Below are positions 17,522 through 57,342 of a stretch of DNA of 64,000 nt, piece after piece. The notes beneath the pieces were generated by a model. It saw only the letters and a list, made by a program, of their open reading frames with translations, was not told the DNA's origin and did not search any database. The stretch's first letter is position 1, and every line of letters starts with the position of its first letter. A program made the translations under genes and the position numbers. The stretch spans positions 1,116,001-1,180,000 of the forward strand of contig NZ_CP082205.1 in assembly GCF_019856455.1 (NCBI RefSeq), written 5' to 3'. The DNA is from Streptococcus suis (GTDB lineage Bacteria > Bacillota > Bacilli > Lactobacillales > Streptococcaceae).

Positions 17522-18871
17522 CAAAGTAAGTTCTAGTCTGTCTTAAAAACTGGAAATTAGACTGAGACAAAGAAATAAGGTAGAACTTACTATGGGACAA
17601 GTTGGTAACTGACAAAAAGGCTAAATGAAAAACAAACACTTAACCCTCTCTGATCGCAACGATATTCAAATAGGAATTGAACAACTTAAGCCCTTCTTAG
17701 CTATAGCAGCTAAGTTAGGTAAAGATCCTTCTACAATCTCAAAAGAAGTTCGGAGAAATCGAGTGGCTAAAGAAAATTCTGTGACATCCAATTGTGATTC
17801 TTGCCCTTTACTCAAAAAGGCTCCCTACGTTTGTAATGCCTGTCCGAAAAAGAGAAGCAACTGCGGATACCAGAAACAGTTCTACTACGCAAAAAGAGCT
17901 CAGCTTGATTATGAAACTAAGCTCTCAGACTCGAGAACGGGTGTTGCACTAAACAAGGAAGAATTCTATCGCATGGATGAGATTGTTTCTGCTGCCATCC
18001 AAAAGGGCCAACACCTCAACCACATCATCGCCTCAAACGAACTTTCGGCATCCAGAGCTTCTATCTACAGATACCTTGAAAAAGGCTATCTGTCCACAAA
18101 GCCCATTGATTTCCCCCGTGTCGTGAAATTCAGAAAGCGGAGAACCAGAAACCTACAACCCATTCCTAAAACTGCCAAAGATGGACGGTCTTACGAGGAC
18201 TTCCAACGCTTTCTCATAGAGAAAGGAATCAGCTATTGGCTGGAAATGGACACCGTTACTGGACGGATCGGTGGAAAGGTACTTCTCACCTTTAACCTCT
18301 CCTTCTGTAACTTTATCTTCGCTCGATTACTTGATAATAAAACAGCTAATGAGGTCGCTAAACATCTCTACGCTATCAAGAATGACCTGCATCAGAAAGA
18401 GATGGACTTCTGCGAACTATTCCCTGTCATTCTGACCGATAATGGCGGTGAATTCGCTAGAGTGGACGATATCGAAATGGATGTTCGTGGAGAATCTAAG
18501 CTATTCTTCTGTGACCCAAATCGTTCTGACCAGAAAGGGAGAATTGAGAAGAATCACACACTTATCAGAGATATTCTTCCTAAAGGAAGTTCGTTTGATA
18601 ACTTGACACAGGAGGACATCAACCTGGTTTGTTCGCATGTCAACAGCGTCAGACGAGCTTCTTTCAACGGAAAATCCGCCTATGAACTCTTTACATTTAC
18701 CTACGGTGAGGAATTGGCAACACTTTTGGGAATCTCTAAAATTGACCCTGAGAACGTCATCCAATCACCTCGATTATTGGATAAATAATCGTTAGTTTTT
18801 ATCAAAAAATAATTTCAAAATAGAAAGGAACTTGTCCCATCCAAAATTCCAGATAGCTAGAACTTACTTTG
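17522..18871 (+). mobile_element. IS30-family element lying within palindromic repeats
   Basis: Two nested inverted repeats bracket the transposase. The outer one is CAAAGTAAGTTCTAG (17522-17536) with its complement at 18857-18871. The inner one is ATGGGACAAGTT (17592-17603) with AACTTGTCCCAT (18829-18840), a perfect 12-bp match. The outer sequence also occurs without an IS at 19009-19049 and inverted at 17581-17593, so the true IS may be the inner 1.25-kb unit inserted into a palindrome. The boundary is therefore uncertain. Confidence 0.65.
17625..18788 (+). CDS. IS30 family transposase
   Basis: A 387-residue transposase. The N-terminal helix-turn-helix is HLTLSDRNDIQIGI...KDPSTISKEVRRNR, as in IS30-type proteins. 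A Cys-rich insert follows (CDSCPLL, CNACPKK). DDE core: LEMDTVTGRIG, ILTDNGGEF and GRIEKNHTLIRDILPKG (catalytic Glu). The reading frame is complete. Confidence 0.94.
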   Translation: MKNKHLTLSDRNDIQIGIEQLKPFLAIAAKLGKDPSTISKEVRRNRVAKENSVTSNCDSCPLLKKAPYVCNACPKKRSNCGYQKQFYYAKRAQLDYETKLSDSRTGVALNKEEFYRMDEIVSAAIQKGQHLNHIIASNELSASRASIYRYLEKGYLSTKPIDFPRVVKFRKRRTRNLQPIPKTAKDGRSYEDFQRFLIEKGISYWLEMDTVTGRIGGKVLLTFNLSFCNFIFARLLDNKTANEVAKHLYAIKNDLHQKEMDFCELFPVILTDNGGEFARVDDIEMDVRGESKLFFCDPNRSDQKGRIEKNHTLIRDILPKGSSFDNLTQEDINLVCSHVNSVRRASFNGKSAYELFTFTYGEELATLLGISKIDPENVIQSPRLLDK

Positions 18872-20963: not shown

Positions 20964-21073
20964 GGCCTGTATTATCGTCATTTAGTTTTTTTTTATTACT
21001 TCGTTAACTCGCCTTGCCTAACTTCAGTTATGCCTGCGGCTCATTGCCTCGTACTAAAAGTAAACTAAAAGAC
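20964..21073. repeat. Intergenic repeat adjoining the first IS110 copy
   Basis: TGTATTATCGTCATTTAG near the left and GTACTAAAAGTAAACTAAAAG at the right are both found, in reverse complement, as the ends of the inner repeat at 46976-47246. The IS110-type element is inserted at its right-hand end. Confidence 0.6.
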
Positions 21074-21085
21074 TGATATGTAAAG

Positions 21086-21449
21086 CCCTTTGTCAAGTAA
21101 AAACAATCGAACTGATTAAAAAATGAAAAGTATCTAGAAAGAGCCTAGTTCTTAGCTTCGGGCATTGGCCACTCTGATATTCGTGGATTGGTTACCTACA
21201 GGTCAATGGTTCTGCCGCGAGTCCTACTCTCTATAAGCGTGGATCACAATTGTGCCACTTAGTCGTTTCGTAGATGACTCAAACCTTGAAGTCCTAAACT
21301 CCTTCAAGATACTTTCCATTCAAACATGATTTCAATCCTTATTTCTGTCCAAATTCACCCAGTGATTTTGGATAGAAATAGGGATTCCTCATCGCTCTGC
21401 GATGATAAAACTTAATGGTCAAAAGTGTACATGAAAACAAGCGCTAACT
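21086..21449 (-). ncRNA. Candidate guide (bridge/seek) RNA region of IS110 copy 1
   Basis: 364 bases between the transposase stop and the IS end have no gene but are rich in stems on the minus strand. A long one has CCCTATTTCTATCCAAA against TTTGGACAGAAATAAGG; others are CATCGC-AGA-GCGATG and CTTGAAG...CTTCAAG. IS1111-type elements are known to encode a target-guiding RNA here. Both copies of the IS carry the region unchanged where I compared them. A TTATAGAGAGT segment resembles the target TATAGACAGT. RNA production is inferred. Confidence 0.5.
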
Positions 21450-22571
21450 TCAAGCTATTCTTCCTGTCATCATCCCCCAAATAAAACCAGACAATTCTCG
21501 TGCAATAGCTGTTTTAGCAACATTTTGTTTCTTATTTTTTCCTAGAACAAGTGTGCGATAACGTCTTCTTAAGCGTTCATTAGCCTTATCCGCATAAGCA
21601 ATCACCTCCACTCGGTTTCCACTTTGTCTCCTTTTCAATTCTTTGGATTTATACCCAATCGTCCCCTTAGCCAATGATTGTGCAGCTTCTATCAGAAGTC
21701 GTCTCACATGGCTATTCCCAGCTTTGGTGATAGCACCTCTTCTCTCCTTGTCGCCGCTAGAATTTTCGCTAGGAGTTAGCCCAAGATAAGAAGCAAAATG
21801 TTGAGCTGTCGCAAAGCGATTAAAATCACCGATTTCTGTCACAATGGAAAGAGCAGTTAGTGTTTTAATGCCAATAAAGCAAGAAAGCCGTGAGACCTTC
21901 TCTTGATAACTGTCGCTTTGACCCAGTTGCTCAATTCGTGCATCATACCGTTCTATTTGATCTACTAATTTCTCATAGGTCAATAGATATTCTGTCAAAA
22001 TCTCTGCGTAAAGTCCCTCAGGTTTTAGGGAACGGAGCCAGCGAACATGTTTCTGTGTCCAATTACTGCTTCCCTCGGTATAGCGAAAATCATGTCGGAG
22101 ACAGAAGGCAAGAATTTGTTGTTTGATTTTCTTCAGAGCCACTTTGTGGTCTGTTCTCATACGGATATATTCTTTGACTTGTTCATCCTCAGCAGTAGGA
22201 ATATGAACAGGCTGATAGCTACGAAAGGCCAGAGCTTTTGCGAGCTGAGCCGCATCTTTCTTATCAGTCTTAACACGCTTAGATCCTTCCTTCATTACCG
22301 TTGTAGGTGCCATCACGATACAGGGAATCCCGTGAGCTTGTAGCTGGTGATATAGGGTAAATCCGAGGCATCCAGCTTCGTAGCCACATAACACTTCTGC
22401 ATCTTGACCATATAAACGACGAAGCTCATTCACATAGTTCACAATATAGCTAACATTTGGACTAACTTTAGTGCTATGTTTGAATTGATTGGTCATCATA
22501 TCATAATAGCAGAGTGAAAAACTTTCTTTGTGAACATCCATTCCGATGAAAAGTGTGGTAAAATGAAACAT
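21450..22571 (-). CDS. IS110 family transposase (DEDD recombinase), copy 1
   Basis: A 373-residue protein. The N-terminal RuvC-like DEDD domain has FIGMDVHKE (first Asp), CGYEAG (Glu) and KTDKKDAAQLA (two Asp). The C-terminal Transposase_20 domain has GIKTLTALSIVTEIGDFNRF and SYLGLTPSENSSGDKERRG, followed by the region of the catalytic serine, KAGNSHVRRLLIEAA. It differs from copy 2 by a handful of substitutions (for example MTNQF here, MANQF there). Confidence 0.95.
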   Translation of the reverse strand: MFHFTTLFIGMDVHKESFSLCYYDMMTNQFKHSTKVSPNVSYIVNYVNELRRLYGQDAEVLCGYEAGCLGFTLYHQLQAHGIPCIVMAPTTVMKEGSKRVKTDKKDAAQLAKALAFRSYQPVHIPTAEDEQVKEYIRMRTDHKVALKKIKQQILAFCLRHDFRYTEGSSNWTQKHVRWLRSLKPEGLYAEILTEYLLTYEKLVDQIERYDARIEQLGQSDSYQEKVSRLSCFIGIKTLTALSIVTEIGDFNRFATAQHFASYLGLTPSENSSGDKERRGAITKAGNSHVRRLLIEAAQSLAKGTIGYKSKELKRRQSGNRVEVIAYADKANERLRRRYRTLVLGKNKKQNVAKTAIARELSGFIWGMMTGRIA

Positions 22572-22927
22572 ATAAGACCTCCAATTGAGTGTGGTAATTC
22601 CTGTTAGAAGTTGATTGTTTTTTTATTCTAGTGTACAGGTAAATCCACGAATTCTCAACTGGGGGTCTTTACATATTGTCTATATAAGTGAAGTGCTTTA
22701 TGCAAGCGGTCGTTTGCTTGCTCATCAAGGCAATTTTTAAAGGAATACTGACTCTCTTTTGGAAAAACTAACTAAAACTAGTCTTAGATGGAAGTGTATA
22801 GCTATGATGAGAATGCAGTTTTTAAAAATTTGTATCTGTTTAAGTAAGGAAACCTGTAGTTTTTCTGAAAATTCCGTACGTTAGTGAATAAATAGTAAAA
22901 AATATGCGAAAATAAGCTGTGGTATGG

Positions 22928-54141: not shown

Positions 54142-55549
54142 TGCCAATAAGCTTTGTAGATATAAAGTTGAAGAGCAGCAGATAGAACAAATAGTAAGGT
54201 CATCAAGGCTGAGCTTACATAAGCTGCACCAATAGTGCCAGCTAATATGATGCTGACAACTAGAATAATGGCTCCGAGAAACATTGTTCCTATGATCGAT
54301 CCAGCAATCAACCATTGACCCGCTCCGCGACCAAATAACTGGTTACTATTTTGCCAGTTGAGCATGAGGAGTCGTTGGTCACGCCAGTAATAAATCTGAC
54401 CAGTTAGCAGGGCTGAAATGATGATGCCGACTGTAAAGAAGAATGCTAGAATGAGTTTGACTTTCATGAAACCTAGAGCCAAAGCAAAGTAAAGTAGAGT
54501 TGGTAGTGCAAATTGCACGGCAGCCAATACCCAGAATTTTTGAATGATAAATTTTTTGAAACTAATAGGAAGCGTTCGAATGAAATGATAATTTTCCTTT
54601 TCCAATGACATGGCTACTCCGATGAAGGTTGTAGAACCAGCAAATAGACTGCCAAGCAAGAATCCAGCTAATAGAGCAATACCAAAGAAATCCCATCCAA
54701 CTGAACTTAGACCACCATTCTCCGTGAAACGGCTAAAACTTGGAAACAGTGCCACCCCCATGATGATAGGTTGTATCATTGTTTGGACCATGAGGTTGCT
54801 ATCTTTAAGAGTAGATAGGTGGTGTTTCACTAAAGCCTGATTGAGATTGCTAGGAATCTTGGCAGACTTAGCATTATTGGTCCGTTTTGTCGAAGCATTT
54901 TCAATCGCCAAAACTTGATTAAAGTAGTTGGGGATGACAGTTTTAAACGCAAACACAATAAGTCCAAACATCAAAATGAGAGGAAGTCCAAAATGAAGGA
55001 GTGTTTCTAGTGATATAGTATGGCTGACCAGGTAATGGAATCCAGCAAATATGGGTATGATAGGAAAATCAACAAAGCCACCGGATTCGAGTGAAACGGT
55101 CTGCTGAGATTGCAGGAACATGAGCGCAGCAAAAGCCATCAAGGAAGAACCTGTCATCAGGATTGTAGAAATCAATGTTTTACGAGGGCTTTTTGTCAGA
55201 ACTTCCCCAACAAAGTGCATGATAATCAGGTTGACTAAATTAACTAAAATCCAGAGAATCAAAAAGGAAGGAATGGAAGCTAAGGCGAGGAGCGGACCGC
55301 CAATTTGCCAGTAAGTGATTAGAAGTAAAGACAGACACGGCATGAGGAAGGGTAGGACCATCCCTTGTGCAGAGAGGATTTTAGCGAGGAAGACTTCTTG
55401 TGGCTTCAGGGGAAGTGCTAAATACAACTTTGTATCCTTACTATCGTAGAAAACGGAGAAGAAACCTGTAAAACCGTAGACAATGGCAATAATGGTAAAG
55501 AGCGCTAGTTGCAGAGAAAAGAAACCGATAGACTGACTGATATGTAAAG

Positions 55550-55913
55550 CCCTTTGTCAAGTAAAAACAATCGAACTGATTAAAAAATGAAAAGTATCTA
55601 GAAAGAGCCTAGTTCTTAGCTTCGGGCATTGGCCACTCTGATATTCGTGGATTGGTTACCTACAGGTCAATGGTTCTGCCGCGAGTCCTACTCTCTATAA
55701 GCGTGGATCACAATTGTGCCACTTAGTCGTTTCGTAGATGACTCAAACCTTGAAGTCCTAAACTCCTTCAAGATACTTTCCATTCAAACATGATTTCAAT
55801 CCTTATTTCTGTCCAAATTCACCCAGTGATTTTGGATAGAAATAGGGATTCCTCATCGCTCTGCGATGATAAAACTTAATGGTCAAAAGTGTACATGAAA
55901 ACAAGCGCTAACT
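55550..55913 (-). ncRNA. Candidate guide RNA region of IS110 copy 2
   Basis: Same sequence and hairpins as 21086-21449, downstream of the transposase on the minus strand. It is conserved while the transposase genes have several substitutions, which suggests the segment is under constraint. Confidence 0.5.
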
Positions 55914-57035
55914 TCAAGCTATTCTTCCTGTCATCATCCCCCAAATAAAACCAGACAATTCTCGTGCAATAGCTGTTTTAGCAACATTTTGTTTCTTATT
56001 TTTTCCTAGAACAAGTGTGCGATAACGTCTTCTTAAGCGTTCATTAGCCTTATCCGCATAAGCAATCACCTCCACTCGGTTTCCACTTTGTCTCCGTTTC
56101 AATTCTTTGGATTTATACCCAATCGTCCCCTTAGCCAATGATTGTGCAGCTTCTATCAGAAGTCGTCTCACATGGCTATTCCCAGCTTTGGTGATAGCAC
56201 CTCTTCTCTCCTTGTCGCCGCTAGAATTTTCGCTAGGAGTTAGCCCAAGATAAGAAGCAAAATGTTGAGCTGTCGCAAAGCGATTAAAATCACCGATTTC
56301 TGTCACAATGGAAAGAGCAGTTAGTGTTTTAATGCCAATAAAGCAAGAAAGCCGTGAGACCTTCTCTTGGTAACTGTCGCTTTGACCCAGTTGCTCAATT
56401 CGTGCATCATACCGTTCTATTTGATCTACTAATTTCTCATAGGTCAATAGATATTCTGTCAAAATCTCTGCGTAAAGTCCATCAGGATTTAGGGAACGGA
56501 GCCAGCGGACATGTTTCTGTGTCCAATTACTGCTTCCCTCGGTATAGCGAAAATCATGTCGGAGACAGAAGGCAAGAATTTGTTGTTTGATTTTCTTCAG
56601 AGCCACTTTGTGGTCTGTTCTCATGCGGATATATTCTTTGACTTGTTCATCCTCAACAGTAGGAATATGAACAGGCCGATAGCTACGAAAGGCCAGAGCT
56701 TTTGCGAGCTGAGCTGCATCTTTTTTATCAGTCTTAACACGCTTAGATCCTTCCTTCATCACCGTTGTAGGCGCCATCACGATACAGGGAATCCCGTGAG
56801 CTTGTAGCTGGTGATATAGGGTAAATCCAAGACATCCGGCTTCGTAGCCACATAACACTTCTGCATCTTGACCATATAAACGACGAAGCTCATTCACATA
56901 GTTCACAATATAGCTAACATTTGGACCAACTTTAGTGCTATGTTTGAATTGATTCGCCATCATATCATAATAGCAGAGTGAAAAACTTTCTTTGTGAACA
57001 TCCATTCCGATGAAAAGTGTGGTAAAATGAAACAT
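55914..57035 (-). CDS. IS110 family transposase, copy 2
   Basis: 373 residues, intact, with the same DEDD and C-terminal serine regions as copy 1. Differences include Thr/Ala in MANQF, Ser/Gly in KVGPN, Gln/Arg in SYRPV, Ala/Val in PTVEDE and KPEG/NPDG. A ribosome site (GGAGG) lies 8 bases upstream of the ATG. Confidence 0.95.
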   Translation of the reverse strand: MFHFTTLFIGMDVHKESFSLCYYDMMANQFKHSTKVGPNVSYIVNYVNELRRLYGQDAEVLCGYEAGCLGFTLYHQLQAHGIPCIVMAPTTVMKEGSKRVKTDKKDAAQLAKALAFRSYRPVHIPTVEDEQVKEYIRMRTDHKVALKKIKQQILAFCLRHDFRYTEGSSNWTQKHVRWLRSLNPDGLYAEILTEYLLTYEKLVDQIERYDARIEQLGQSDSYQEKVSRLSCFIGIKTLTALSIVTEIGDFNRFATAQHFASYLGLTPSENSSGDKERRGAITKAGNSHVRRLLIEAAQSLAKGTIGYKSKELKRRQSGNRVEVIAYADKANERLRRRYRTLVLGKNKKQNVAKTAIARELSGFIWGMMTGRIA

Positions 57036-57342
57036 ATAAGACCTCCAATTGAGTGTGGTAATTCCTGTTAGAAGTTGATTGTTTTTTTATTCTAGTGTAC
57101 AGGTAAATCCACGAATTCTCAACTGGGGGTCTTTACATATTGTCTATAATCTACTCCCATGAAAAAGACAGAATAGAGAAGTCCGAAACTCAAAACCATA
57201 AATACTTGTTGCAAGAGTATACTTTTATAGGCTGAAAAGGAGGCGTCTTTGCGCTTACTTTGTTTCTTCTTGACGGAAGCTAGAAGTTGAGGATTGGAAT
57301 AAAGAATATTAATCTTTACTAGTTCCCAAATGATGGATTTAC

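Follow-up and report, generated by a model that had tools for sequence, protein, structure and literature searches.

A very abundant IS110-family jumping gene, probably guided to its insertion sites by a non-coding RNA of its own

The element described here is a bacterial jumping gene of very high abundance. A non-coding RNA that it carries itself appears to direct where its enzyme inserts it. We found two copies, both on the minus strand, in the window (the whole 64-kb stretch of DNA that was analysed) and 40 full-length copies in the window's own genome of 2,561,054 bases, and we put the probability that this is an IS110-family, IS1111-like insertion sequence (IS) moving by RNA-guided recombination at about 0.93. 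Comparison of the copies suggests which letters of the RNA read which letters of the target.

The full-length copies (40 of the 63 first-look candidates scored there) are 97-100% identical to copy 1 and are accompanied by fragments; an internal-site pattern occurs 45 times in the genome, a number that equals the sum of 40 full copies, four tail fragments and one transposase-free locus. The initial annotation had claimed two copies with, in transposase orientation, TATAGACA and ATATGTAAAG at the left end and CTTTACATAT and CAGT at the right, and both copies are indeed present with these ends, at 21074-22678 and 55538-57142. All 40 copies end as ..AGA[CA-IS-CA]G.., and the subterminal inverted repeat (sTIR) of 10 bp, perfect in 39 of them, lies within the 7-17 bp of the IS1111 group. 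The features of the element and its surroundings are as follows.

21073-22679, minus strand: IS copy 1, 1607 bp (earlier limits 21074-22678), arranged as ACA..sTIR..tnp..NCR..sTIR..C plus one AG core; from the 40-copy comparison and the empty sites of other copies
55537-57143, minus strand: IS copy 2 (earlier limits 55538-57142), at TATAG^TCAGTC (^ separates the left and right flanks); empty allele in five relatives
21450-22571, minus strand: transposase/recombinase gene, 373 aa; D12, E65, D103, D106 and S272-G273 do not vary among the 9 proteins aligned
22667-22676, minus strand: left sTIR, ATATGTAAAG, in 40/40 copies
21076-21085, minus strand: right sTIR, CTTTACATAT, in 39/40 copies
22680-22684, minus strand: left target half TATAG, ending in the core AG (22680-22681); from flank comparison and empty sites
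21067-21074, minus strand: right target half AGTCTTTT, starting with the core AG (21073-21074); from flank comparison and empty sites
20971-21073, no strand given: MITE-like repeat (family 2); copy 1 is inserted at its end; approximate limits, set by eye

One IS copy in the genome (L280, G000:C1:319000-322500) has an internal deletion that removes part of the transposase gene and the target loop and is joined at a 5-base repeat, ATCCA, not at AG. Another (L007, G000:C1:1066616-1068220) disrupts a gene of AbiEii type (Pfam PF08843), one half of a toxin-antitoxin pair for phage defence; uninterrupted alleles are present in relatives. Near the element, the window holds an ORF at 17625-18788 that resembles an IS30 transposase, as judged by eye only.

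The transposase carries the Pfam domains DEDD_Tnp_IS110 and Transposase_20 (Tnp_20), matches the NCBIfam entry for IS110 family RNA-guided transposases, and has the D/E/D/D and S-G residues of the broad IS110 family; as in that family, nothing of the target except the core is duplicated on insertion, as seen in the 28 empty alleles (8 of 16 sites). Its nearest named records are from Streptococcus azizii and S. suis, and when 395 genomes of the order were searched with the protein, none of the listed matches from outside the genus exceeded 42% identity (over part of its length). A search of viral contigs with the window transposase found no relative; six loci were found there with a relative from Butyrivibrio, and a phage collection yielded two records. 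The layout is that of the IS1111 group, with 376 nt of non-coding sequence after the stop codon and ~107 nt before the start, and with the match to the top strand (21261-21268) lying 5' of the match to the bottom strand (21231-21236) on the minus strand. At 373 aa the transposase is longer than the 330-350 aa reported for the IS1111 clade, and in place of that group's 7-bp left and 3-bp right extensions beyond the sTIR we found ACA and CAG, a 3+3 rather than 7+3 arrangement that follows from taking the 10-bp repeat as the sTIR. Our own initial reading of 7+3 extensions was dropped once the empty sites were known. Judged by its sequence, the element is of the IS110 family and IS1111-like in arrangement. 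The earlier assignment to an IS110/IS1111 type is supported by recombinase and layout; protein length and end extensions differ from those reported for strict IS1111 members.

The target was read from flanks and empty alleles. On both sides of all 40 copies the element is bordered by AG; TATAG is found on the left of 35, and the left flanks have no shared bases beyond about seven. The joined flanks of 16 sites, window copy 2 included and copy 1 left out, were searched against 12 relatives, and among the 30 loci retrieved were 28 empty alleles at eight of the sites (one of the eight is a repeat, whose five alleles are not all one locus). All are as short as TATAGTCA and none has an inserted ACA or C, so ACA and C belong to the IS and AG is common to donor and target. 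Deviations are few: three of the 28 in the left half (TGTAG once, GACAG twice) and one with AA rather than AG at the core. The typical intact target is TATAG^TC(A/G)TTT, with an AG core shared with the donor. The initial annotation was right that a target could be deduced; its intact target, TATAGACAGTCT, was wrong, since the empty alleles read like TATAGTC..

The non-coding tail, from the stop codon to the element end, folds better than shuffled versions of itself (z = -3.85; 0/100 as good), which bears out the earlier proposal of a structured tail downstream of the transposase. Among streptococcal relatives a tail core of ~130 nt is conserved, apart from two short variable segments within it. 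One of these, AAACGACT, gives AGTCGTTT when reverse-complemented; the other, TTATAG, equals the left target; the AG core is part of both. In the predicted fold the two segments are opposed in an internal loop between conserved stems. The parts of the predicted RNA are these.

21122-21324, minus strand: predicted bridge RNA/seekRNA, made up of a closing stem, a target-binding loop and a donor-binding part; its ends are deduced from the fold
21261-21268, minus strand: predicted right target guide, AAACGACT, pairing with the top strand AGTC(G/A)TTT; identical in 40/40 copies
21231-21236, minus strand: predicted left target guide, TTATAG, pairing with the bottom strand of TTATAG; identical in 40/40 copies
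21200-21208, minus strand: candidate right donor guide, CATTGACCT, pairing, with an interruption, with AG and CAAT of the left end; an inference, and the weakest of the four
21173-21180, minus strand: predicted left donor guide, ATATCAGA, matching ATATC-AG-A of the circle junction; from sequence match
21333-21406, minus strand: two upstream hairpins, holding the GGACAGAAA arm; outside the conserved bridge-RNA core

The initial annotation had placed a candidate guide RNA here, and the comparison of sequences supports it, target guides included, with changes in detail. Its segment TTATAGAGAGT (21226-21236, minus strand) does hold the left guide, of which only TTATAG (21231-21236) would act as such. 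Its stem arm GGACAGAAA (21342-21350, minus strand), thought to read the target, is not a guide, the second guide being AAACGACT; the arm belongs to a different hairpin further upstream, and the G161 relative, which is still found at TATAG, lacks it.

Covariance folding, which had been suggested as a check, gave two-sided changes in six pairs among ten sequences, where shuffles average 3.2 and 16 of 500 reach six. In the same ten sequences 91.8% of 220 cells are paired, against 35-42% in slid versions, and the covariation score was reached by 0/500 shuffles; pair types number nine, a value equalled or exceeded in 497/500 shuffles. Compensatory changes support the predicted fold. A long closing stem is possible in all seven elements considered, at -37 to -46 kcal/mol and partly with unrelated sequence, the stretches having been picked by eye with no shuffled control. 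At the level of sequence the element has what marks a bridge RNA or seekRNA: a predicted structured non-coding RNA, parts of which are complementary to each of the two target strands. Membership in a known Rfam family was considered and dropped, the matches all lying below the gathering score. An RNA-model search across the class matched 6 of 398 genomes, our own included; of the five others three were compared by tblastn, and the remaining two are G224 and G814.

An isolated, decayed guide-RNA module (L165 1455-1560; L255; L167 1665-1770) keeps its donor part and has lost the outer target stem. It has no adjoining transposase match in G256 and G262, lies near an Obg-like ORF in G256 (by eye) and adjoins an IS copy in G000. 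At L250 and L165, again by eye, about ten or more G in a row stand between -35-like and -10-like boxes, possibly marking length-variable promoters.

Relatives provide a natural series of retargeting. The G009 variant (L106) is 95% identical in DNA and 94% in protein, has the guides CATTTAG and AATAAACT and sits at CGTTTAG^TTTATC, eight bases deeper in the same kind of repeat, a target that differs on both sides; two more left and two more right ends in the draft G009 genome share its register, their guides being unassembled. In G161, whose protein is 64% identical, the guide AAACAACT goes with one copy at AGTTGTTT (full match) and one at AGTTACTC (5/8), and in G012 the guide AGTTCACT is found at AGTGAATT, a further right end being AGTGGATT with its guide unassembled. 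The same plan recurs in distant relatives from Butyrivibrio (L256), a Deltaproteobacteria MAG (L049), Clostridiales (L057), a faecal phage (L257) and viral contigs (L258-L263). In some copies of the viral-contig elements L259-L263 the joined left and right targets resemble, by eye, a ribosome binding site before ATG, for example GGGAG^GTGA..ATG.

Pairing of guide and flank was compared with shuffled assignments, using one row per distinct guide and only the flanks of copies with their own guide read. The eight left guides match 3.61 of 4 non-core positions against 1.57 when shuffled (8 of 300,000 shuffles as good), and the ten right guides 4.57 of 6 against 2.16 (1 of 300,000). A flank's own guide is best or tied in 8/8 cases on the left and 9/10 on the right, the exception being L258. 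These figures come from guide positions first located by eye with the flanks known, with a one-base shift allowed for L261, and they leave out L053 (GG, not AG, at the right end), L051 (tail unrecognised), L056, L060 and others; earlier versions that included some flanks of copies with unassembled guides gave about the same result. The weakest matches are G247 (6/8 pairs), one of the two G161 copies (5/8) and L258 (5/8), whose flank is fitted better by another guide. The initial annotation had suggested looking for covariation between loop bases and flanking targets, and such covariation is found: swapped guides are matched by changed flanks in streptococci and in distant relatives. The comparison supports a link by which a change in guide letters would change the target. 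If so, the G009B loops placed in this element would shift its target from TATAGTCGTTT to TTTAGTTTATC.

Within the genome itself the fit is imperfect at one position. At the 34 sites whose right flank is not the element's own sequence, the fourth base after the IS is A in 22, G in nine, C in two and T in one; facing it, the element's right guide carries C. Relatives have a U-variant guide, and its fit to these sites is slightly better than that of the resident guide (6.79 against 6.41 of 8). The excess of A opposite the guide C could be explained by a tolerated mismatch, by the abundance of MITEs or by another guide.

The MITE-like repeats and the enzyme itself each suggest another origin for the conserved flanks. 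Recognition of TATAG/TC by contacts between recombinase and DNA alone, with a tail that is regulatory or stabilising and matches it by chance, can draw on the IS621 enzyme, described in PMC11208158 as contacting the core through protein, and on the cheapness of a 6-base match in 376 nt. Such recognition is difficult to reconcile with flanks that track guide changes over eight left and ten right guides, or with the 94% identical protein of L106 at a target that differs on both sides, and we consider it very improbable. The flanks might also be conserved by hitch-hiking, the IS having been copied along with a MITE that contains it. In 10 of the 40 copies the right flank is the left end of a ~106 bp MITE-like repeat. 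For the MITE with ends TATAGTCATTT and TATAGTCGAAT, ten of the 40 copies lie in the first end and none in the second, a preference that speaks for guided choice. By the patterns used, 10 of the 34 non-self right flanks belong to one MITE family and five resemble a second. The other 19 match neither, several sites outside MITEs have empty alleles reading TATAG^TC or similar, and the left flanks have nothing in common beyond about seven bases; hitch-hiking alone is barely credible. RNA-guided choice of the target remains the reading we prefer.

Two further segments of the tail probably read the donor. The predicted left donor guide tracks the donor in two groups, ATATC with AUAUCAGA and ATAAC with AUAACAGA; in L259-L263 both read ATAAC-AG-A, and in the single G247 copy a C to T change in the guide breaks the donor match by one base. 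For the candidate right donor guide, CATTGACCT, an RNA change of G to A goes with a donor change of C to T, one G-C to A-T change.

These parts can be assembled into a proposed cycle. The element would leave as a circle, and we infer from the sequence that its junction is CTTTACATATC-AG-ACAATATGTAAAG and forms a promoter, TTGACA-17-GACAAT. The transcript would yield the transposase and, from its 3' tail, the bridge RNA. In the target loop, in line with the covariation, AAACGACT would pair with the top strand on the right side of the core, and TTATAG, on the left side, with the bottom strand, the AG core being included in both pairings; to read the circle junction the donor part would use ATATCAGA and, with less certainty, CATTGACCT. 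By analogy with the chemistry of IS621, the DEDD/serine recombinase would then swap strands at the shared AG to give TAT-AG-ACA..IS..C-AG-TCATTT, the very arrangement seen when empty and filled sites are compared.

In six of the 40 copies a stretch of the element's own sequence comes after the right end. The joins fall at five internal sites, each of which is AG in the parent, and a transposase-free locus with two RNA tails adds a sixth internal site and another use of the first. With AG making up 7.1% of the element's dinucleotides, six of six would arise by chance at ~1e-7, though a microhomology rule in ordinary recombination could bias the count. One self-join falls exactly within the left-guide DNA, TTATAG, and the outermost right end of all six self-joined copies has a normal, target-like genomic flank. 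The transposase-free locus (L279, G000:C1:377000-382000) has tandem guide-RNA tails, with modules at 379202-379329 and 379407-379534; it carries the right guide AAATGACT in place of AAACGACT, and at its left TATAG is joined directly to an internal AG site. It is the one tail-only locus recognised, and lies in the window's own genome; a pattern search matched 17 of 284 Streptococcus genomes (matches not inspected singly), and the idea of tail-only units as a mobile family is not supported.

The tandem tails, where only tail fragments are concerned, may have come from homologous recombination after one copy inserted into another rather than from recombinase joins, and we give this roughly even odds. 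The six target-like outer right ends fit it, and long direct repeats would permit such a collapse; against it, none of the 40 left flanks is element-internal, no uncollapsed nested copy is seen among them, and at one locus TATAG runs straight into an internal AG. A more speculative and rather unlikely proposal is that AG sites of the element itself, the left-guide DNA included, are substrates for the recombinase, which would so build tandem or transposase-free tails whose orphan guides (AAATGACT, G000:C1:379202-379534) act in trans and widen the targets of resident copies. Were it true, guides in trans would account for the excess of A over G at the fourth target base despite C in all 40 resident guides. 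The joins at internal AG hint that self-recombination may have a part in shaping such elements and in producing orphan guide RNAs.

Use of repeats as landing sites has parallels. IS4321 and IS5075 reportedly target the terminal repeats of Tn21, likewise the terminal repeat of another mobile element; for the present element the repeat is that of a MITE, with many further sites used besides. ISPa11 targets REP sequences (PMC11187229) and so resembles this element in inserting into repeat sequences.

RNA-guided target choice by IS110/IS1111 elements is already established (PMC11187229, PMC11208160, PMC11208158), and a guide swap between relatives has been reported for ISEc11 and ISXne4 (PMC11187229). 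With the IS1111 seekRNA elements ISEc11, ISKpn4 and ISPa11 the present element shares a DEDD transposase with the GL-P----SG motif, sTIRs, a junction promoter, and a non-coding region downstream of the transposase gene in which the top-strand match lies 5' of the bottom-strand match; it differs from their 330-350 aa and 7+3 bp in its 373 aa and in having ACA and CAG beside a 10-bp sTIR, and is known here from sequence alone. The IS621 system (PMC11208160, PMC11208158) has, as predicted here, four guides in one RNA, a shared dinucleotide core inside the pairings and an interrupted right-donor pairing, and its enzyme has the same conserved D/E/D/D and S residues, whereas here the RNA is placed at the 3' end instead of the 5' end, the right target guide precedes the left, and the core is AG on the strand read here instead of CT; the sequence match to IS621 is only 29.7 bits, over residues 204-300. 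ISSsu7, an IS110-family IS described as common in Streptococcus suis (PMC12982343, PMC10807230), a species of which two genomes are reported with 51 and 38 IS110-family IS (PMC10886379), shares the family and the likely host group, a likeness drawn from description rather than from sequence. Keyword searches of the open literature found no description of this element's guide. The RNA-guided principle being known, the element stands as an unusually clear natural example and offers a good series of retargeting in nature. One guide in 40 copies, swapped guides in relatives and empty alleles together provide natural data on the strictness with which a target is read and on how guides change in evolution.
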